Below, piece by piece: positions 18,483 to 29,007 of a DNA stretch of 64,000 nt. The stretch covers positions 1,618,356-1,682,355 of the forward strand of contig NZ_KE124774.1 in assembly GCF_000188155.2 (NCBI RefSeq). Direction: 5' to 3'. A program made the translations under genes and the position numbers. The stretch's first letter is position 1. The number at the start of each line of letters is the position of its first letter. The notes under the pieces are model-generated. The model searched no databases and was not told where the DNA came from. It worked only from the letters and a program-made list of their open reading frames with translations. This DNA comes from Methylocystis sp. ATCC 49242 (GTDB taxonomy: Bacteria > Pseudomonadota > Alphaproteobacteria > Rhizobiales > Beijerinckiaceae).

Positions 18483-20021
18483 ATGTTCACAGTGGAACTC
18501 TATGCCCGGGTGAGACGCGCGGTGATGGCGGAAGGGCTGAGCCGGCGGGAAGCGGCCAGGCGCTTCGGCGTGCACCGCAATACGATCACGAAGATGCTTC
18601 AATATTCGGTTCCGCCGGGGTATCGGCGTCGGGAGCGGCCGATCTCGAAGAAGCTGGGGCCGTATATGGCCTGGATCGACAAGGTCCTGGCGGATGATCG
18701 GCTTGTTCACGCCAAGCAGCGTCATACGGCACAGCGGATATTCGAACGGCTGCGGGACGAAGAAGGGTTTTCCGGCGGTTACACGATCGTCCGGGAATAT
18801 GTCGCGCAGGCGCAGTTGCGGTCGCGCGAGATGTTTATTCCACTCAGCCATCGACCGGGGAATGCGCAGGCGGATTTTGGCGAGGCGGACGCCTATATCG
18901 CCGGCAGGAAGGTCCGCTTTCATTATTTTTGCATGGACCTGCCGCATTCGGACGGCTGCTTCGTCAAGGCCTATCCGGCGGAGACGGCGGAAGCCTTCTG
19001 CGACGGCCATGTCGCGGCCTTCGCCTTCTTTGGCGGCGTCCCCCAGTCCATTCTTTACGACAATACGCGTCTCGCGGTCGCCAGGATCGTGAAGGGTGGA
19101 GAGCGTCTGCGTTCGCAAATGTTTGCGGAACTCCAGAGCCATTACCTTTTTGCTGATCGCTTTGGCCGGCCCGGCAAGGGGAATGACAAGGGCAAGGTCG
19201 AGGGGCTTGTCGGCTATGTCCGGCGCAACTTCATGACGCCACTGCCCGTGGCGGAGAGTTTCGAGGCGCTGAACGCGAGGTTCCTGGACGCCTGCACGAA
19301 ACGACGGCGGGCGATCCTGCGCGGCCAGTCGACGCCGATCGGCGAACGCATGCAGGCGGATATGGCGGCATTCCTGCCGGCGCCGCCGGCTCCCTATGAC
19401 GCCTGTCACAAGGTCGCGACGCGCGTGTCGTCGATGGCGCTGGTGCGCTACCGCAACAACGATTACTCGGTCCCGATGCGCTTCGGCCATCGGGAGGTGC
19501 TGGCCAAGGGCTATGTCGATCGGGTCGAGATTGTCTGCGGCGGGGAGACCATCGCCGTGCATGCGCGCAGCTACGGCAAGGCCGAGTTCATCTACAACCC
19601 GCTGCATTATCTCGCTTTACTCGAACACAAGAGCCGCGCGCTCGATCAGGCCGCGCCACTCGACGACTGGCGGCTTGCCGACTGCGTGCATCGTCTGCGG
19701 CGGCTGATGGAGGCGCGCATGGGGAATAGCGGGCGCCGCGAGTTCATCCAGGTGCTGCGGCTGATGGAGGACTTTCATCAGCATCAGGTCGAACAGGCGG
19801 TCGCGGAGGCGCTGCGTCTTGGCGCGATCAGCTTTGACGCAGTGAAGATGCTGCTGCTGGCCAGGCTGGAGAACCGGCCCGCGCGGCTCGATCTGACATT
19901 CTACCCCTACCTGCCGGCGGCTACGGTCGGCGCGACGGATCCGCGCGCCTATCTCGGGCTCGTCGCCGGCGCGAGCGTCATCGCGGGCGTCATGGAGACG
20001 ACCGCGGGAGGTCCGGCATGA
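18483..20021 (+). CDS. istA: IS21 family transposase IstA
   Basis: 512 aa DDE transposase. An N-terminal helix-turn-helix (GLSRREAARRFGVHRNTITK) is followed by an rve integrase core. Likely catalytic acidic residues lie in NAQADFGEAD, ILYDNTRLAV and GKVEGLVGYV. A C-terminal domain rich in basic residues follows (LVRYRNNDYSVPM). Length and frame are intact, so the element may be active. It overlaps istB by 4 bases. Confidence 0.95.
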   Translation: MFTVELYARVRRAVMAEGLSRREAARRFGVHRNTITKMLQYSVPPGYRRRERPISKKLGPYMAWIDKVLADDRLVHAKQRHTAQRIFERLRDEEGFSGGYTIVREYVAQAQLRSREMFIPLSHRPGNAQADFGEADAYIAGRKVRFHYFCMDLPHSDGCFVKAYPAETAEAFCDGHVAAFAFFGGVPQSILYDNTRLAVARIVKGGERLRSQMFAELQSHYLFADRFGRPGKGNDKGKVEGLVGYVRRNFMTPLPVAESFEALNARFLDACTKRRRAILRGQSTPIGERMQADMAAFLPAPPAPYDACHKVATRVSSMALVRYRNNDYSVPMRFGHREVLAKGYVDRVEIVCGGETIAVHARSYGKAEFIYNPLHYLALLEHKSRALDQAAPLDDWRLADCVHRLRRLMEARMGNSGRREFIQVLRLMEDFHQHQVEQAVAEALRLGAISFDAVKMLLLARLENRPARLDLTFYPYLPAATVGATDPRAYLGLVAGASVIAGVMETTAGGPA

Positions 20022-20860
20022 CCATCTCGCATGAGCCAGGTTCGCAGACGATCGTCGCGCCGCAGGTGCTGCTGGGTAATCATCTCAAGGCGCTGAAGCT
20101 TCCCACCTTCGCGCGCGAATATGAGAAGGTGGCGCTGGAGTCGGCGCAGGACCGCGCCGATTACCCGCGCTATCTGCTACGCCTGTGCGAACTGGAGCGC
20201 ATTGATCGCGAGCGGCGCAATGTCGAGCGCCGCATCCGGCTGGCGCGCTTTACGCAGGTCAAAAGCCTCGACACATTTGACTTTACCGCCCAGCCTTCAC
20301 TCAACAAGCCGCTCGTGCTGGAGCTGGCGCGGTGCGAATGGATCGAGAAGCGACAGAACTGCATCGCCCTTGGGCCAAGCGGAACGGGGAAGACCCACGT
20401 CGCGCTCGCCCTGGGGCTCGCCGCCTGCCAGAAGGGGTTCAGCGTCGCGTTCACGACCGCCGCGGCTCTTGTGCACGAACTGATGGAGGCGCGCGACGAG
20501 CGCCGCCTGCGCGCGCTGCAAAAGCATCTCAACACCGTCAAACTGCTGATCGTCGACGAGCTGGGCTATGCGCCGTTCACGGCGGTCGGCTCAGAGCTGC
20601 TCTTCGAGGTCTTCAGCCAGCGCTATGAACGCGGTGCGACGCTGGTGACCAGCAATCTGCCCTTTGATGAATGGACGTCGGTGTTTGGCTCCGAGCGTCT
20701 CACCGGCGCATTGCTCGACCGGCTCACCCATCATGTCCACATTCTGGAAATGAACGGCGGGAGCTATCGCCTCTCGACCGCAAAGAAAGCGCAACGGCGA
20801 AACCGCGATCTCCCCGACGCGCCCGCAATCGACAAAGGAGGCGCCGACACGACGAACTGA
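20018..20860 (+). CDS. istB: IS21 family transposition helper ATPase IstB
   Basis: 280 aa AAA+ ATPase related to DnaC. The Walker A motif is GPSGTGKTHVALALG and Walker B is LLIVDELGYAPF, with the sensor region VTSNLPFDEWTSVFGSERLT. It assists IstA in target capture. The coding sequence is uninterrupted. Confidence 0.95.
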   Translation: MTISHEPGSQTIVAPQVLLGNHLKALKLPTFAREYEKVALESAQDRADYPRYLLRLCELERIDRERRNVERRIRLARFTQVKSLDTFDFTAQPSLNKPLVLELARCEWIEKRQNCIALGPSGTGKTHVALALGLAACQKGFSVAFTTAAALVHELMEARDERRLRALQKHLNTVKLLIVDELGYAPFTAVGSELLFEVFSQRYERGATLVTSNLPFDEWTSVFGSERLTGALLDRLTHHVHILEMNGGSYRLSTAKKAQRRNRDLPDAPAIDKGGADTTN

Positions 20861-21032: not shown

Positions 21033-21542
21033 TCAGGCGGCCGCTCCGCAGCACTTTTTGTATTTCTTGCCGGAGCCGCAGGGACAGGGGTCGTTGCGCC
21101 CGGGCTGGGCGCCCTTGACGATCGGCGCGTTCTTGCGATTTGCCTCTTCGAGAAAATACCAGCGGCCATCTTCCTTGCGGAAGAGCGAACGCTCCCGATG
21201 CGCGTGACGCTGTCCGTCGTTGACGAAATGCGCGACGAATTCGACGTAGCCCGTCTCATCCTCGGCCCCGCCCTGTTCGGTCGAGAGTATTTCGAGACCG
21301 AGCCATTGCGACGAACGGGACCAATGGGTGATCGCCTTGCGATCGAAGTCATCGCGCGTGCCCGGCGCCAGGGTCTCGACCAGATGGTCGATCTTGCCGA
21401 GCGCGAACGCCGTATAACGCGAACGCATCAGGGCTTCCGCGGTCGGCGCGGGCTTGCCTTCCTCGATATAGGGCGCGCAACATTCCGAGTAGGATTTCGG
21501 ATTCTCGTCCTTGGCGCGGCAGGGGCAGATCGCGTCGGTCAT
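21033..21542 (-). CDS. YchJ family SEC-C zinc-motif protein
   Basis: 169 aa. A short Cys cluster lies at each end: [17 protein letters not shown] at residues about 6-22, and the SEC-C motif [17 protein letters not shown] at the C-terminus. The middle is the NTF2-like UPF0225 fold ([20 protein letters not shown]). Function is unknown; SEC-C motifs bind zinc. The start codon gives a typical N-terminus. The gene lies between the IS21 element and the fds operon and shows no operon link beyond shared strand. Confidence 0.9.
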
Positions 21543-21735: not shown

Positions 21736-22005
21736 TCAGCCGTCCTCTCCGCCATGACCGCAGCGCAAATCCGAGCCCGCCGTTCCCGATGGGTGAGACA
21801 GGCGCTTGACCGCCTCGAGAGCGACGGGATCGAGCCCCGCGCCGCCGTGATTGACATGGTCGATAATCGCCGCGCGCATGCGCGGATCCCAGAACTTCGT
21901 CAGATGGTCCGCCATGCTGGCGGCCGTGTCGTGCGTCTGTGCGCCGAAGAACTGACCAATCTGGTTGGCCATCTTAACAAGTTTGTCGACCGAATTATGC
22001 GACAT
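21736..22005 (-). CDS. fdsD: Formate dehydrogenase delta subunit FdsD, second (distal) copy
   Basis: 89 aa. It begins MSHNSVDKLVKMANQIGQFF exactly like the proximal copy and keeps the family core (DPRMRAAIIDHV, GGAGLDPVALEAVKRL). The last 20 residues (SHPSGTAGSDLRCGHGGEDG) are unlike the other copy and unlike usual FdsD. FdsD helps maturation or stability of the Mo-containing FdsA. Start ATG 22005 overlaps the stop of the proximal copy by 11 bases, the same overlap that the proximal copy has with fdhD. It arose by tandem duplication with a 244-base offset. Confidence 0.85.
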   Translation of the reverse strand: MSHNSVDKLVKMANQIGQFFGAQTHDTAASMADHLTKFWDPRMRAAIIDHVNHGGAGLDPVALEAVKRLSHPSGTAGSDLRCGHGGEDG

Positions 22006-22249
22006 GAGCTGAGACCTGTTCGAGAATATGTCCTGAATGGGCGAGGCGCTTGACCGCATCGATCGCAATCGGATCGAGCCCTGCGCCGCCGTGATCGACA
22101 TGCTCGATAATCGCTGCGCGCATGCGCGGATCCCAAAACTTCACCAGATGGTCCGCCATGCCGGCGGCCGTGTCTTGAGCCTGCGCGCCGAAGAACTGAC
22201 CGATCTGATTGGCCATTTTAACAAGTTTGTCGACCGAATTATGCGACAT
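21995..22249 (-). CDS. fdsD: Formate dehydrogenase delta subunit FdsD, first copy, with an FdhD-derived tail
   Basis: 84 aa. The first 70 residues are canonical FdsD (MSHNSVDKLVKMANQIGQFF, DPRMRAAIIEHV, GGAGLDPIAIDAVKRLA). The last residues, HSGHILEQVSAHVA, are nearly the same as the C-terminus of FdhD, HPGRILEQAAAHVA. This copy therefore runs into a duplicated 3' end of fdhD and uses that gene's stop context. It overlaps fdhD by 11 bases. Confidence 0.88.
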   Translation of the reverse strand: MSHNSVDKLVKMANQIGQFFGAQAQDTAAGMADHLVKFWDPRMRAAIIEHVDHGGAGLDPIAIDAVKRLAHSGHILEQVSAHVA

Positions 22250-23066
22250 GAGCTGCAGCCTGTTCGAGAATGCGTCCTGGATGGGTGAAGATTTCGAAGT
22301 CACGGCCGCGCATGACGGCGACGAGCGTGATACCGCATTTTTCGGCGTTGCGAACGGCTAGCGCGGTCGGCGCCGAGACGGCGGCGATGATCGGCGCGCC
22401 CATTCGGGCGGCCTTCTGAACGAGCTCCACGGAAACGCGGCTCGTCATCAGCACCACGCCCTGCGACGCTGCGATCGCCTGCCGGGCGAGGGCGCCGGCG
22501 AGTTTGTCGAGCGCATTGTGGCGGCCGACATCCTCACGCACGATCAGCGCGCCCGTGGCCGGGTTCCAGAAAGCTGCGGCGTGAACGGCGCGCGTCTCCT
22601 GATTGATCTTCTGCGCGGCAGGCAAACGTTCCATGGCCTCGATCAGCGCCTCCGCGTGGATCGTGAGCGCGTTGTCGATGACCGGAAGGCTTCGTGTGGC
22701 GGCCTCCAGGCTTTCGATGCCGCAAAGGCCGCAGCCGGTGGGACCGGCCATCGAGCGGCGGCGCTCCGAATAGGCTTCCTGACGCCCGCCCTTGAGCCAG
22801 GCGCGGAGCTCCACGCCCGCTTCGGACGCAAGGATTTCTACCTCGCCCGCCTCTTCCGCGGTGTCGACCAGCCCTTCTGTCAAAGCGAAGCCGACCGCGA
22901 AATCTTCGAGGTCGGCCGGCGTCGCCATCATCACCGCATGAGTCGAGCCGCCATAAGTGAAGGCGATCGGGGTTTCCTCAGGGATGACCCGCACCCCCCG
23001 CGCCGTCACATCGTGACGGCGCGCGAGGCATTCCACCCTCAGCGTCGGCGACGGCGTTTCGGTCAT
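22239..23066 (-). CDS. fdhD: Formate dehydrogenase accessory sulfurtransferase FdhD
   Basis: 275 aa. FdhD carries sulfur to the Mo cofactor of formate dehydrogenase. The redox/sulfur relay motif GCGLCGIE is present about residue 112. The central conserved block HAAAFWNPATGALIVREDVG, then RHNALDKLAG, and VVLMTSRVSVELVQKAARMG is intact. It overlaps fdsA by 4 bases and fdsD by 11 bases, the usual position between FDH subunit genes. Confidence 0.95.
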   Translation of the reverse strand: MTETPSPTLRVECLARRHDVTARGVRVIPEETPIAFTYGGSTHAVMMATPADLEDFAVGFALTEGLVDTAEEAGEVEILASEAGVELRAWLKGGRQEAYSERRRSMAGPTGCGLCGIESLEAATRSLPVIDNALTIHAEALIEAMERLPAAQKINQETRAVHAAAFWNPATGALIVREDVGRHNALDKLAGALARQAIAASQGVVLMTSRVSVELVQKAARMGAPIIAAVSAPTALAVRNAEKCGITLVAVMRGRDFEIFTHPGRILEQAAAHVA

Positions 23067-25942
23067 TCAGCCGCGTCGATTGCGGTCGCGATGCGCCGGC
23101 TCTGCTCCGACAGCTCGCGATACTTCTCCTGCCACTCGGTGGGGCCGTTGGAAGGCGAAATCTGAACGGCGGTCACCTTGTATTCGGGGCAGTTGGTGGC
23201 CCAGTCCGAATTGTCGGTGGTGACGACATTGGCCTGGGTCATCGGATGGTGGAAGGTCGTGTAAACGACGCCCGGCGCCACGCGATCGGTGATCTTGGCG
23301 CGCAGCGTGGTTTCACCGGCCCGGCTCTGCACGCGCACCCAATCGCCGTCGCAAACGCCACGGTCCTCCGCGTCATGCGGATGGATCTCCAGAATGTCTT
23401 CCGGATGCCACTGGCTGTTCTCGGTGCGGCGCGTTTGCGCGCCCACGTTGTACTGCGACAGGATTCGGCCCGTGGTGAGCAGCAGCGGGAAGCGCGGACC
23501 CACCTTCTCGTCCGTCGGGACATATTCGGTGATGACGAACTTGCCCTTGCCGCGCGCGAAGCCGTTGATGTGCATGATCGGCATGCCTTCCGGCGCCGCG
23601 TCGTTGCACGGCCACTGCACGGAGCCCTCGCGATCGAGCATCTCGTAAGAGACGTTGCGGAAGGACGGCGTGAGGCGCGCGATCTCGTCCATGATCTCGG
23701 ACGGGTTCGCATAGTTCCAGTTCATGCCGAGCTTATTGGCAAGGAGCTGGGTAACCTCCCAGTCGCCATAGCCGTTCTTCGGGCTCATCACCTTGCGAAT
23801 GCGCTGGATGCGGCGCTCCGCATTGGTGAAGGTGCCGTCCTTTTCGAGGAAGGTCGCGCCCGGCAGGAAGACATGCGCGTAATTCGCCGTCTCCACAAGG
23901 AACAGGTCCTGCACGATCACGCATTCCATGTTGGCAAGAGCCGCCGAGACATGGCGCGTGTCGGGGTCGGACTGCAGAATGTCCTCGCCCTGCACGTAAA
24001 GGCCCTTGAACACGCCCTCGATCGCCGCGTCGAACATGTTGGGAATGCGCAGGCCCGGCTCATTGTCGAGCTTGACGCCCCAGTCCGCCTCGAAGACCGC
24101 GCGGGCCTTTTCGCCGGAAATGTGCTGGTAGCCCGGCAGCTCGTGCGGGAACGAGCCCATGTCGCAGGAGCCCTGGACATTGTTCTGACCACGCAGCGGG
24201 TTCACGCCGACGCCGCGGCGGCCAAGATTGCCGGTCGCCATGGCGAGATTGGCGATGCCCATGACGGTCGTCGAGCCCTGCGAATGCTCCGTCACGCCGA
24301 GGCCATAGTAAATGGCCGCATTGCCACCCGTGGCGTAGAGCCGCGCCGCGCCGCGGATGTCGGCGGCCGAAACGCCGAGAGTGGCTTCGAGCGCCTCCGG
24401 GCTGTTGCGGTCCTGGGCGACGAAGTCAGCCCACGCCTGGAACTCGTCCCAGTCGCAGCGCTCGCGCACGAAGGCTTCATTGACGAGGCCTTCCTTGACG
24501 ATCACATGCGCCAGAGCCGTCACCATGGCGACATTCGTGCCGGGCTTCAGCGGCAGGTGGTAGTCCGCCTCGATATGGGGCGACCGCACGAGATCGATGC
24601 GGCGCGGATCGATGACGATCAGTCTGGCGCCTTCGCGCAGGCGCTTCTTCATGCGCGAACCGAACACCGGATGGGCGTCGGTCGGATTCGCGCCGATGAC
24701 GAGGATGACGTCCGCCTCGTCGACCGAGTCGAAGTCCTGCGTGCCGGCGGAGGTTCCGAACGCCTGGTTGAGGCCATAGCCCGTCGGCGAGTGGCAGACG
24801 CGGGCGCAGGTGTCGACGTTGTTGTTGCCGAAGCCGGCGCGGACGAGCTTCTGAACGAGATAGGTCTCCTCGTTCGAGCAACGCGACGAGGTAATGGCTC
24901 CGACCGAATTGCGGCCGTATTTCTGCTGGACGGCCTTCAGGCGATCAGCAGCGAACGTCAGAGCCTCGTCCCAGGAAACGACGCGCCACGGCTCGTCGAT
25001 CGACTCGCGGATCATCGGGTTCAGGATGCGATCGCCATGATGGGCGTAGCCATAGGCGAAGCGGCCCTTGATGCAGCTGTGGCCGTGATTGGCCTTGCCG
25101 TCCTTCCAGGGCACCATGCGAACGATTTCCTCGCCGCGCATCTCGGCCTTGAAGGTGCAGCCGACGCCGCAATAGGCGCAGGTGGTGACTTCCGAGTGCT
25201 CCGGCTGGCCGATGGCGATGACGGATTTCTCGGTGAGCGTCGCGGTCGGACAGGCCTGGACACAGGCGCCGCAGGACACGCATTCCGACTCCATGAACGC
25301 TTCGTCCATGCCGGGGGACACGCGGCTGTCGAAACCGCGTCCGGAGATCGTCAGCGCGAAAGTGCCCTGCACTTCCTCGCAGGCGCGCACGCAGCGGTTA
25401 CAGACGATGCACTTCGACGGGTCATAGGTGAAATATGGGTTCGACTCGTCCTTCGGCTTCCAGTCGAAGTTCACCTCGCCGTTGTTGCGGGCGAAAACGT
25501 GGTTGGCGCCGTCATAGCCATAGCGCACGTCGCGCAGGCCGACAGCGCCCGCCATGTCCTGCAGCTCGCAGTCGCCGTTGGCGGCGCAGGTGAGGCAGTC
25601 GAGCGGATGGTCCGAAATATAGAGCTCCATCACGCCGCGACGGATGGCGGCGAGACGCGGCGTCTGCGTCTTGACGGAGATGCCCGGCGCGACCGGCGTC
25701 GTGCAGGAGGCCGGCGTGCCGTTGCGGCCCTCGACCTCGATGACGCAAAGGCGGCAGGAGCCGAAAGCCTTGATGCTGTCGGTGGCGCAGAGCTTCGGGA
25801 TCTCGGTCCCGATCTCCATCGCCGCGCGCATGATCGACGTCCCTTCGGGAACGGTGACGCTCTTACCGTCAATGGTCAGCGTGACCATCTTTTCGGATTT
25901 GGACTCGGGCGTTCCGTAATCGGTTTCCTTGATAAGCGTCAT
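23063..25942 (-). CDS. fdsA: NAD-dependent formate dehydrogenase alpha subunit (Mo/W-bis-MGD, Fe-S)
   Basis: 959 aa. It oxidises formate to CO2. In order: an N-terminal [2Fe-2S] domain (Cys52, 63, 66, 80); the His/Cys cluster motif in HPLDCLTCAANGDCEL; two ferredoxin [4Fe-4S] motifs (CIVCNRCVRAC, CVSCGACVQAC); the molybdopterin domain with CAYCGVGC; the metal-ligand Cys in CARVCHSPT (about residue 380); and a C-terminal dinucleotide-binding domain (TTGRILSQYNVGAQTRRT). ATG 25942 has GAGG 9 bases upstream. It is cytosolic and works with FdsB and FdsG. Confidence 0.97.
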   Translation of the reverse strand: MTLIKETDYGTPESKSEKMVTLTIDGKSVTVPEGTSIMRAAMEIGTEIPKLCATDSIKAFGSCRLCVIEVEGRNGTPASCTTPVAPGISVKTQTPRLAAIRRGVMELYISDHPLDCLTCAANGDCELQDMAGAVGLRDVRYGYDGANHVFARNNGEVNFDWKPKDESNPYFTYDPSKCIVCNRCVRACEEVQGTFALTISGRGFDSRVSPGMDEAFMESECVSCGACVQACPTATLTEKSVIAIGQPEHSEVTTCAYCGVGCTFKAEMRGEEIVRMVPWKDGKANHGHSCIKGRFAYGYAHHGDRILNPMIRESIDEPWRVVSWDEALTFAADRLKAVQQKYGRNSVGAITSSRCSNEETYLVQKLVRAGFGNNNVDTCARVCHSPTGYGLNQAFGTSAGTQDFDSVDEADVILVIGANPTDAHPVFGSRMKKRLREGARLIVIDPRRIDLVRSPHIEADYHLPLKPGTNVAMVTALAHVIVKEGLVNEAFVRERCDWDEFQAWADFVAQDRNSPEALEATLGVSAADIRGAARLYATGGNAAIYYGLGVTEHSQGSTTVMGIANLAMATGNLGRRGVGVNPLRGQNNVQGSCDMGSFPHELPGYQHISGEKARAVFEADWGVKLDNEPGLRIPNMFDAAIEGVFKGLYVQGEDILQSDPDTRHVSAALANMECVIVQDLFLVETANYAHVFLPGATFLEKDGTFTNAERRIQRIRKVMSPKNGYGDWEVTQLLANKLGMNWNYANPSEIMDEIARLTPSFRNVSYEMLDREGSVQWPCNDAAPEGMPIMHINGFARGKGKFVITEYVPTDEKVGPRFPLLLTTGRILSQYNVGAQTRRTENSQWHPEDILEIHPHDAEDRGVCDGDWVRVQSRAGETTLRAKITDRVAPGVVYTTFHHPMTQANVVTTDNSDWATNCPEYKVTAVQISPSNGPTEWQEKYRELSEQSRRIATAIDAAE

Positions 25943-25953
25943 GGTCGGATACC

Positions 25954-27507
25954 TCACTCGGCAGCGGCTTCAAGGGCCGGCTTGTGGAAGTCCTCAGGGA
26001 AGTGACGAAGCGCGCTTTCAACCGGATAAGGAGCAAAGCCGCCCAGCGCGCAGAGCGAGCCAAACTTCATCGTGTGGCACAGGTCTTTCAACAATTCGAT
26101 ATTCGCTTCGACATTCTCGCCCTTGCGAATCTTGTCGATCGTCTCGACGCCGCGGGTCGAGCCGATGCGGCAGGGCGTGCACTTGCCGCAGCTTTCGATG
26201 GCGCAGAACTCCATGCCGAAGCGCGCCATCCACGCCATGTCGACCGTGTCGTCGAAGATCACGAGGCCGCCGTGGCCGATGAGGCTGTCCTTGGCCGCAA
26301 AAGCTTCATAGTCGAACGGCAGATCGAACAGCGAAACGGGCACATAGGCGCCGAGCGGGCCGCCGACCTGCACCGCGCGGACCGGACGGCCCGAGCGCGT
26401 GCCGCCGGCGATGTCGTTGACGATCTCGCCCAGGGGGATGCCGAAATCGGTCTCGAACAGGCCGCCATACTTCACATTGCCGGCGATCTGCAGCGGCATG
26501 GTGCCACGCGAACGGCCGACGCCGAGATCGGCGTAATGCTGCGCCCCCTTCTCGAGAATCATCGGCGTGGTCGCCATCGACAGGACGTTGTTTACAACCG
26601 TAGGCTTGCCGAAAAGACCCTCATGCGCCGGCAGCGGCGGCTTGGCGCGGACGATGCCGCGCTTGCCCTCGAGGCTCTCGAGCAGCGAGGTCTCCTCGCC
26701 GCAGACATAGGCGCCCGCGCCGATGCGCAGTTCGATGTCGAACTTGAAGCCGGAGCCGCGGACATTGTCGCCCAGCCAGCCGGCCTTGCGGGCGACGTCG
26801 ATCGCCGCCTGGAAGACCTTCGCTGCCACCGGATATTCCGAGCGCAGATAGACGTAGCCCTTGGTTCCGTTGATGGCGTAGCCGCAGATGATCATGCCTT
26901 CGATCAGCGACAATGGATCGCCTTCCATGATCATGCGATCGGCGAAAGTGCCCGAGTCGCCCTCGTCGGCGTTGACCACGACATAGCGCTGGTCCGCCGG
27001 CGCGTCCGCCACCGTCTTCCATTTGATGCCGGTCGGGAAGCCGGCGCCGCCGCGGCCCCGCAGGCCGGACTTGGCGACTTCCTCTATCGTCGCCGCCGGC
27101 CCGATCTGGAAGGCGCGCGCGAGACCCGCGCCGCCGCCATGAGCCTCATATTCCGCGATCGACAACGGGTCGATGACGCCGCAGCGCGCGAAGGTGATGC
27201 GGTTCTGGCGCTTCATCCAGGGATGGTCGTCGACCTTGCCGATGTTCAGCGCATGGGCGCCGCCAGTCAGAAAGCCGGCGTCGAACAGCGAGCCGACGTC
27301 CTTGAGCGAAACCGGCCCGTAGCCGATGCGGCCCGCAGCCGTCTGGACCTCCACCAGGGGTTCGAGCCAGAGCATGCCGCGCGAGCCGTTCCTGACGATC
27401 TCGACGGACTCGCCGCGCGCGGCGGCTTCTTTTGCGATGGCGGCGGCGAGGCGATCGGCGCCCATCGCCACGGCGGCCATATCCAGCGGAATGTAGATCT
27501 TCGTCAT
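25954..27507 (-). CDS. fdsB: NAD-dependent formate dehydrogenase beta subunit (FMN, NAD, Fe-S; NuoF-like)
   Basis: 517 aa. The N-terminal part is thioredoxin-like (NuoE-like). The NuoF core follows, with the FMN/NAD glycine-rich motif GLRGRGGAGFPTGIKW, NADEGDSGTFADR and GAYVCGEETSLLESLEGKRG. The [4Fe-4S] site is ESCGKCTPCRIGSTRG plus a distal Cys. It passes electrons from FdsA to NAD+. It follows fdsG with a 1-base overlap and precedes fdsA by 11 bases. Confidence 0.97.
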   Translation of the reverse strand: MTKIYIPLDMAAVAMGADRLAAAIAKEAAARGESVEIVRNGSRGMLWLEPLVEVQTAAGRIGYGPVSLKDVGSLFDAGFLTGGAHALNIGKVDDHPWMKRQNRITFARCGVIDPLSIAEYEAHGGGAGLARAFQIGPAATIEEVAKSGLRGRGGAGFPTGIKWKTVADAPADQRYVVVNADEGDSGTFADRMIMEGDPLSLIEGMIICGYAINGTKGYVYLRSEYPVAAKVFQAAIDVARKAGWLGDNVRGSGFKFDIELRIGAGAYVCGEETSLLESLEGKRGIVRAKPPLPAHEGLFGKPTVVNNVLSMATTPMILEKGAQHYADLGVGRSRGTMPLQIAGNVKYGGLFETDFGIPLGEIVNDIAGGTRSGRPVRAVQVGGPLGAYVPVSLFDLPFDYEAFAAKDSLIGHGGLVIFDDTVDMAWMARFGMEFCAIESCGKCTPCRIGSTRGVETIDKIRKGENVEANIELLKDLCHTMKFGSLCALGGFAPYPVESALRHFPEDFHKPALEAAAE

Positions 27508-27980
27508 CAGCCCTTGGCCTCCGCGACGATTTCATCGAGCTTCGCAGCGTCGACGCATCCGATCGGCTCACCGTCAAATAGCGCCGACGGGCTATGGGCG
27601 CACAGACCCAGGCAATAAACCGGCTCGACGGTCAGCGAGCCATCAGGCGTCGTCTGCCCCCATTCGAGCTTCAGCTTGGCCAGGAAATCCTTCGCCTGCT
27701 TCTCCGCGCCCATGGATTGGCACGATTCGGCGCGGCAGATCTTGAGCGTGTGACGCCCATGCGGCTCCCGATGGAAGTCGTGATAGAAGGTCACGACGCC
27801 ATGCATTTCCGCGCGGGTGATGTTCAACGCCTCGGCCATTTCCCGGACGGCGGCCTCCGGCACGTGGCCGAATTCCGCCATTAACGCATGCAAAATGGGC
27901 AGGGCGGGCCCTTCGAGACCCATATGGGCCGCGATGATCTCCCGCGCCCGCTCGTCGCTATACGGAGCAGCGCCAGCCAT
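27507..27980 (-). CDS. fdsG: NAD-dependent formate dehydrogenase gamma subunit (NuoE-like, [2Fe-2S])
   Basis: 157 aa. The thioredoxin-like [2Fe-2S] fold is shown by CRAESCQ and CLGLCAHSP (four Cys ligands), preceded by the helical region LPILHALMAEFGHVPEAAVR. ATG 27980 (MAGAAPYS) is chosen because GGAAGGGAAG stands directly upstream; a longer frame to 28136 would overlap the regulator gene. It is the first gene of the fds operon. Confidence 0.95.
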   Translation of the reverse strand: MAGAAPYSDERAREIIAAHMGLEGPALPILHALMAEFGHVPEAAVREMAEALNITRAEMHGVVTFYHDFHREPHGRHTLKICRAESCQSMGAEKQAKDFLAKLKLEWGQTTPDGSLTVEPVYCLGLCAHSPSALFDGEPIGCVDAAKLDEIVAEAKG

Positions 27981-28092
27981 TTCTTCCCTTCCCGTTCCGG
28001 GCGTTTCGCTTTCGCGACCGCCGTTCTTTAGATTGTTTCCACGGACAGTGCCGGAATTTGCCGCTGCGATCAATACCGGACATTCGTTGCTC

Positions 28093-28109
28093 GATAGGGG
28101 TTGCCTATC
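28093..28109. promoter_or_regulatory. LysR-type operator (AT-N11-AT dyad) upstream of fdsG
   Basis: GATAGG and CCTATC face each other across 5 bases and contain the canonical T-N11-A LysR box (T28095, A28107). The site is 113 bases upstream of the fdsG start and overlaps the stop codon of the LysR gene. It is the only such dyad I see in this spacer. Confidence 0.5.
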
Positions 28110-29007
28110 AACTGTCCAAAACGCCGCTTTCGGCAAGGGTTTTGGCCTCCGCGACCAACGCCGCGACCAATGGAATCACGGGGTCGCGCTGCGGGGCGAC
28201 AAGGCCGATTTCGTACACGGCTTCGGGCTCGACGATGGGGATCGAACGCAACGGCGCGGTCACGCCCAGCGTCTTGGCGAGCTTTTCCGGCAGCACTGTC
28301 GCCCAGCGGCCGGACTTTACGTGGTCGAAAAGCAGAATCACCGAATCCGACTCGAGAATCGGCGCAGCCTCTTCGCCCGCGCTCTGGATCAGGCGATCAA
28401 TGATGCGCCGGTTCTGCATATCGGGCGTCAGCAGGCACAAGTCGATGCGGCCGACCTCGGCCCAGGTGACGCGCTCCCGGTCGCCCAGCGGATTGTCGGC
28501 GAAGGTCAGCAGGCGGTAGCGCTCCTGACACATGGGCACGGTGCGCACGCGGCCGAGCGGTTCGTTGTCGAGATAGGTGATTCCGGCGTCGATCTCGAGA
28601 TTGTCGAGCATGGCCAGCACTTCCGCCGACGAGGCCGAAAACACGGTGAAGCTGACCCCCGGATGCTTTTCCCGATAGGGTGTCGTCAGGGTCGACACGA
28701 TGCCGAGCGCCGTCGGAATGACGGCGATCTTGAGCTGGCCGGTGAGGCCCTCCTTCATGCTGCGCACGTCCTGCCGCATGGCCCGGGCGTCGCCGACGAT
28801 TCGCTTGGCCCACTCCAGAACCCGCTCGCCTTCCGCCGTGAGGCCGTGGAAGCGCGAAGAGCGGTTGACGAGCAGCACGCCGAGAGAATCCTCGAGCTGT
28901 TTGATGCCCGCCGACAGCGTCGGCTGGGTGACGCCGCAAAGCTCCGCCGCGCGAGAGAAGCTCTTCTCGGCGGAGACGGAAATAAGAAATTCGAGTTTTT
29001 CGATCAC
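28108..29007 (-). CDS. LysR-family transcriptional regulator of the fds operon
   Basis: 299 aa from GTG 29007. The N-terminal winged helix-turn-helix (KSFSRAAELCGVTQPTLSAG) and a periplasmic-binding-like effector domain (GQLKIAVIPTALGIVSTL onwards) are intact. The match to FdsR-type regulators is by position and by the start region IEKLEFLISVSAEKSF. GTG 29007 fits homologue starts; ATG 29073 would add 22 Ala-rich residues. It lies upstream of fdsG on the same strand, 127 bases away, rather than divergent. It probably responds to formate or a C1 state; the effector is not visible in sequence. Confidence 0.88.
   Translation of the reverse strand: MIEKLEFLISVSAEKSFSRAAELCGVTQPTLSAGIKQLEDSLGVLLVNRSSRFHGLTAEGERVLEWAKRIVGDARAMRQDVRSMKEGLTGQLKIAVIPTALGIVSTLTTPYREKHPGVSFTVFSASSAEVLAMLDNLEIDAGITYLDNEPLGRVRTVPMCQERYRLLTFADNPLGDRERVTWAEVGRIDLCLLTPDMQNRRIIDRLIQSAGEEAAPILESDSVILLFDHVKSGRWATVLPEKLAKTLGVTAPLRSIPIVEPEAVYEIGLVAPQRDPVIPLVAALVAEAKTLAESGVLDS

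Follow-up and report, generated by a model that had tools for sequence, protein, structure and literature searches.

Tandem duplication of fdsD with the 3' end of fdhD in the formate dehydrogenase operon of a Methylocystis methanotroph

The fds operon and its two fdsD genes

The window, which is the whole 64,000-nucleotide stretch of Methylocystis sp. ATCC 49242 DNA that was analysed, carries the fdsGBACDD operon of this methanotroph. The genes are all co-oriented on the minus strand, in the order fdsG, fdsB, fdsA, fdhD and both copies of fdsD:

27507..28136, minus strand: fdsG, 2Fe-2S subunit (PF01257; the listed open reading frame, with the true start probably further in)
25954..27507, minus strand: fdsB, NAD/FMN subunit (PF01512, PF10589)
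23063..25957, minus strand: fdsA, molybdenum formate dehydrogenase alpha subunit (profile match and matches to solved chains)
22239..23066, minus strand: fdhD (fdsC), formate dehydrogenase maturation factor (PF02634, 258 bits)
21995..22249, minus strand: proximal fdsD, 84 amino acids, FdsD core with an FdhD-derived tail, LAHSGHILEQVSAHVA (PF11390, 86.4 bits; alignment)
21736..22005, minus strand: distal fdsD, 89 amino acids, FdsD core with the native Gly/Asp-rich tail ending GGEDG (PF11390, 86.8 bits)

The FdsA of the window matches solved chains 9wxb_B and 6tg9_A with 1621 and 1598 bits, respectively. In both FdsD sequences the PF11390 match spans positions 1-61 of the 61 in the profile, with scores that can be set against a curated cut-off of 27 bits. 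Downstream of the fds operon, at a distance of about 0.9 kb (18483-20860 of the window, plus strand), are two adjoining open reading frames of 512 and 280 amino acids; together these look like a putative istA/istB pair of the IS21 type.

The same G-B-A-C(fdhD)-D order, a close FdsA and a PF11390 FdsD are found in the fdsGBACD operons described for the soluble NAD-dependent molybdenum formate dehydrogenases of Rhodobacter capsulatus and Cupriavidus necator (PMC7171172, PMC12571268). As described there, these operons have one fdsD, whereas the window has two in series, the first with an FdhD-derived tail. Methylosinus trichosporium OB3b likewise has fdsG, B and A with fdsC and D, in two locus-tag series, and in contrast to the window a single fdsD and no doublet is listed for it in PMC3615186. 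The doublet is a real finding, but what it represents is an altered form of an operon already known and no novel system, and it leaves the picture of the enzyme mechanism unchanged.

The repeat unit and the nested start of fdsD

The two fdsD genes are parts of a head-to-tail repeat, the features of which are as follows:

22044..22287, minus strand: repeat unit 1, made up of the final 49 bases of fdhD and of proximal fdsD up to its base 206, with 11 bases common to the two genes (repeat search, 89% to unit 2; offset-244 scan)
21800..22043, minus strand: repeat unit 2, the copied fdhD end, which is the tail of proximal fdsD, and the first 206 bases of distal fdsD (repeat search; offset-244 scan)
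22239..22287, minus strand: source segment within fdhD, with the tail codons, the conserved GAACAGG and the nested fdsD start (sequence comparison)
21995..22043, minus strand: copied fdhD 3' end, which codes for the hybrid tail and contains the start region of distal fdsD (identical to the fdhD of the window at 29 of the 36 bases that directly precede the CAT codon)
22239..22249, minus strand: 11-nt overlap of the fdhD stop and the proximal fdsD start (sequence ATGTCGCATAA)
21995..22005, minus strand: 11-nt overlap of the proximal fdsD stop and the distal fdsD start (sequence ATGTCGCATAA)

An earlier note on this DNA had described two FdsD frames in series with starts 244 bases apart, each with an identical 11-base overlap with the gene before it, and this is borne out by the ATG codons at 22249 and 22005 and by the identical overlaps above. 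It was also right that the two proteins share their start sequence, although the identity extends over 23 residues rather than the 20 that were claimed; 9 of the 69 core residues differ. The proximal tail, HSGHILEQVSAHVA, does resemble the FdhD end, HPGRILEQAAAHVA.

The two 244-bp units are identical at 216 of 244 bases and differ at 28. The next-best ungapped stretch on the same strand of the window reaches 98/244, with a mean of 64, and chance similarity of the units is thereby ruled out. At offset 244 no more than background matching is left immediately beyond 22287 or below about 22043, giving the repeat sharp edges. A lack of similarity past the FdsD core had been named in the earlier note as a result that would overturn the claim of a unit that began in fdhD and ran through most of fdsD; the aligned units match on into fdhD, so similarity confined to the FdsD core is ruled out as well and the claim survived. 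A 244-bp tandem duplication thus took in fdsD and the last 49 bases of fdhD. Since unit 1 opens 49 bases before the fdhD end, unit 2 places a copy of that end behind the proximal FdsD core, which is the origin of the hybrid tail.

Recombination at a long microhomology was considered as a source of the joint. A string common to fdhD and the distal tail, TCACCCATC, was noted by eye, but its reading frame is a different one and the hybrid sequence is not joined at that point; inspection by eye found no clear microhomology at the duplication joint.

The fdsD ATG lies inside fdhD in all 36 Methylocystis genomes compared; the two genes share 11 nt in 34 of them and 14 nt in the other two (G024 and G033). 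Outside the genus, eight selected genomes of the same family were compared, and the overlap is 11 nt in seven and 14 nt in one. This range shows that the overlap is older than the duplication and not a product of it. Of the 38 fdsD starts in the genus, 37 have an AGG within positions -13 to -9 relative to the ATG; of the 8 starts in other genera, only 2 do. The GAACAGG ahead of the fdsD start has bases that are almost constant across Methylocystis and that are not kept in the other genera compared; this constancy suggests a translation signal beneath the FdhD codons.

The start codon of fdsD, together with the conserved stretch before it, sits within the fdhD 3' end. This layout is plain from the sequence, and it probably dictated that the duplicated unit begin in fdhD: only a copy that brought the fdhD end with it would have a start of its own. 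Because the copy carries this end, each fdsD overlaps the preceding stop by the same 11 bases, and the distal fdsD of the second doublet described below likewise overlaps its proximal fdsD by 11 nt. Tandem duplications in operons with overlapping genes are a general class, which the present case resembles in that the copied unit has its translation start within the 3' end of the upstream gene. It differs from overlapping-gene duplications in general in that the position of the unit boundary leaves the first copy with a C-terminus derived from another protein, and does so in two Methylocystis lineages. The case illustrates cleanly, in these two lineages of the genus, how a nested translation start would fix where a duplication can begin and which tail the copy gets.

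At both fdsD starts the 11-nt overlap of stop and start is as expected of a translationally coupled pair. Distal fdsD is probably translated by termination-reinitiation from proximal fdsD, and the first fdsD of the operon probably likewise from fdhD. Overlapping pairs are described as coupled via termination-reinitiation, for which short overlaps are needed, those of 4 nt and 1 nt being the commonest in coupled pairs (PMC10666635); the abstract of that paper makes no mention of an 11-nt overlap.

Occurrence of doublets and the number of origins

That two delta genes in one operon would be unusual, as the earlier note had supposed, is confirmed within the genus. FdsD is present in 36 of 39 Methylocystis genomes, every candidate having been scored, and a tandem doublet in two of the 36, the window genome and G007; the search of relatives for a doubled fdsD that the note had proposed therefore did return a second case. 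In the family sample FdsD was found in at least 272 of 397 genomes and two or more matches in at least 20 of the 272, with tandem pairs only in the same two genomes; in the other multi-match genomes the copies are separated by 280 kb or more or lie on separate contigs. The phylum sample comprised 398 genomes, at least 88 of them with FdsD, and at least three of these gave several matches: the window genome, G581, where the copies are 1.3 Mb apart, and G624. The two matches in the last of these (G624:C1:2626710-2626890) adjoin each other but differ in frame, which looks like a single broken gene. In the family and phylum samples scoring covered up to 15 first-look candidates in each genome, so that a weak copy could be missed, and the three samples overlap. 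Of 80 named FdhD loci examined, some from genomes that are also in these samples, 75 have a nearby FdsD and none of these has a doubled fdsD near fdhD. A literature search by title and abstract opening returned no paper on a doubled fdsD.

An extra FdsD match that is not in tandem is carried by 12 other Methylocystis genomes. A second formate dehydrogenase alpha gene, apparently in two frames split near L004 8435, is located at L004:7692-10835 (G000:C6 about 2562691-2565834), and the third FdsD that follows it is 42% identical to the proximal copy (76.6 bits). The extra FdsD of the three loci read (L085, L088 and L089) are 75-87% identical to this third FdsD. M. trichosporium OB3b is reported to carry an additional alpha subunit gene that is not expressed (PMC3615186).

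The G007 doublet has the same gene order as the window, fdsG-B-A-fdhD-fdsD-fdsD. The gene that comes next downstream in the window (21033-21542) had no tblastn match in the 16-kb G007 stretch. The proximal tail of G007 ends KQVQPHGA. In the FdhD tree of 43 rows, from which G019 was left out as partial, the window genome is placed weakly beside a single-copy clade of 17 genomes (89/27) and G007 groups with the single-copy G024 and G033 (99/98). In the FdsD DNA tree of 38 rows the two copies of each genome pair together, in different clades, with moderate support (90/78 and 93/86); in the FdsD protein tree neither within-genome pair was recovered and neither was rejected (p 0.483 and 0.314). Use of Ks as a date for the G007 doublet was dropped due to saturation, the value being 1.08 for the pair and as low as 0.74 between the G007 copies and other genomes.

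The window and G007 doublets are most likely two independent duplications, and this is the explanation favoured here. A single old duplication in the Methylocystis ancestor, kept in these two genomes, lost elsewhere and with its copies homogenised by gene conversion, would explain why the repeat spacing differs by just one codon (244 bases in the window, 247 in G007), why the hybrid tails are equal in length and why both distal FdsD end in GGEDG. Pairing of the two distal copies was not rejected at 0.05 by the AU test (p 0.060 for DNA, 0.213 for protein), and in the genomes that had lost the doublet, recombination between the direct repeats would be expected to restore one intact fdsD. Such a history is nevertheless unlikely. 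Pairing of the two proximal copies was rejected (p 0.0005 for DNA, 0.0148 for protein), a single clade of all four copies gave p 0.0435 for DNA, and the position of G007 beside the single-copy G024 and G033 in the FdhD and FdsD trees alike, with the window genome elsewhere, would call for several losses as well as conversion. In addition, the hybrid tail of G007 is nearer to its own fdhD (18/36 bases, a level reached by 0.5% of locus positions) than to the hybrid tail of the window (13/36); against the genus consensus it matches 13/36 bases, a level that 13% of positions reach and that is not significant. An assembly or sequencing artefact is extremely improbable. The species is represented by one genome, but its assembly of 6 contigs is 100% complete and 0% contaminated, a like arrangement occurs in another assembly, and the differences between the copies are mostly at third codon positions in the core. 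The 22 differences over the 207-base core are distributed 6, 1 and 15 at codon positions 1, 2 and 3, which is not as expected from a simple duplication in assembly.

Selection, tails and role of the FdsD copies

FdhD ends ILEQVSAHVA in 23 of the 36 Methylocystis genomes (one of the 36 taken from a partial gene), and this is the commonest ending. The FdhD of the window ends ILEQAAAHVA, unique among the 36, while the hybrid FdsD tail retains ILEQVSAHVA. Over the 36 bases before the shared CAT codon the hybrid tail matches the genus consensus at 28, one fewer than it matches the fdhD of the window. The distal FdsD ends GTAGSDLRCGHGGEDG, like the GAAASELRPGEGGSDG-type ending of most of the 17-genome sister clade, in which 3 of the 17 have shorter FdsD tails; the distal copy therefore holds the native tail. 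Residue changes from FdhD are found in the 5' half of the hybrid tail only (T to A, P to S and R to H), and these alter the T, P and R of THPGRI, none of which varies among six Methylocystis FdhD that were aligned. No residue has changed in the 3' half, where the distal gene has its start region. This suggests that the hybrid tail is kept by its role as a start region and not by FdhD function.

Between the window copies Ks is 0.319 and Ka is 0.065, a Ka/Ks of 0.2; the lowest Ks of the window copies against 13 of the other 36 rows is 0.82. The deficit of nonsynonymous changes between copies is significant for the window pair (Fisher p 0.0005, from rounded counts) and for the G007 pair (p 2.5e-6). 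Purifying selection on the window pair is clear, and constraint on the proximal copy alone is no more than suggested: when changes were polarised by an outgroup of 29 other genomes, the proximal branch received 4 synonymous and 4 nonsynonymous ones, too few to establish it, and the distal branch 6 and 4, with 4 unassigned to a branch. An alignment of 72 FdsD sequences has 9 invariant and 10 nearly invariant columns, and each window copy retains the conserved residue at all of them, including F19-F20. The FdsA of the window retains NSDWATNCPEY, the Trp of which aligns with the Trp counted as residue 917 of 9wxb_B. The residues of the Phe-Phe pair are thus present in both copies and that of the cap-loop Trp in FdsA, the contact between them being a prediction.

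The R. capsulatus FdsD is described as a four-helix protein of 71 amino acids, of which residues 2-70 were modelled; it is seated on the FdsA cap, where Phe16/Phe17 stack with FdsA Trp917, and promotes bis-MGD insertion (PMC7171172). FdhD (FdsC) and FdsD are both described as acting in FdsA maturation (PMC7171172, PMC12571268). Two solved FdsD chains have matches to the distal copy, over residues 5-69 of the latter, so that the swapped tail lies outside the part with known structure. Both products keep the core that binds the FdsA cap in R. capsulatus, with the exchange of tails confined to the region beyond it. It is likely that the role of the doublet is to supply extra FdsD, with more FdsD per transcript available for bis-MGD insertion and FdsA stability and with the copies largely redundant. 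In M. trichosporium OB3b, expression values of 368 and 312 are given for fdsD and 210 and 199 for fdsC (PMC3615186); expression of fdsD above fdsC is a hint that FdsD supply may matter. The doublet offers a natural test of whether this supply limits the assembly of molybdenum formate dehydrogenase, an enzyme type of biotechnological interest.

A duplication in the window of fdsD with the fdhD end, its breakpoint set by the nested start and its product a largely redundant extra FdsD, with a separate event in G007, is given a probability of about 0.65. The proximal copy might instead be a tolerated relic heading for loss, its frame kept open mainly because the distal start lies in its 3' end. 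Doublets are rare, and in G007 the proximal copy has a branch length of 0.49, which is long, and is without the nearly invariant P41; in the window, though, the conserved residues and the low Ka/Ks between the copies speak against decay, as does a proximal branch that is not clearly faster changing than the distal one, and a relic is rather unlikely. A split of roles is quite doubtful. One copy could be a resident FdsA subunit and the other an assembly factor, with the FdhD-like tail aiding the proximal copy at the FdhD docking site. Retention of both copies in two genomes with a Ka/Ks near 0.2 between them, the wholly different tails and the shared service of FdhD and FdsD in FdsA maturation would fit such a split, but the loss of T, P and R from THPGRI indicates that FdhD-type constraint was not kept, the half of the hybrid tail that was retained is the start region of the next gene, and the hybrid tail of G007 is barely recognisable. 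That the hybrid doublet arose twice through selection, giving two FdsD isoforms, one of them FdhD-tailed, that act at different steps of molybdenum cofactor loading into FdsA, is improbable. Redundant extra FdsD is the role preferred here for the doublet.

A Gly/Asp C-terminal motif is absent from the FdsD of some Methylocystis clades. The FdsD of several genera end in a short motif of this kind (GSDAG, GASDAG and GGSDG) past the structured core.
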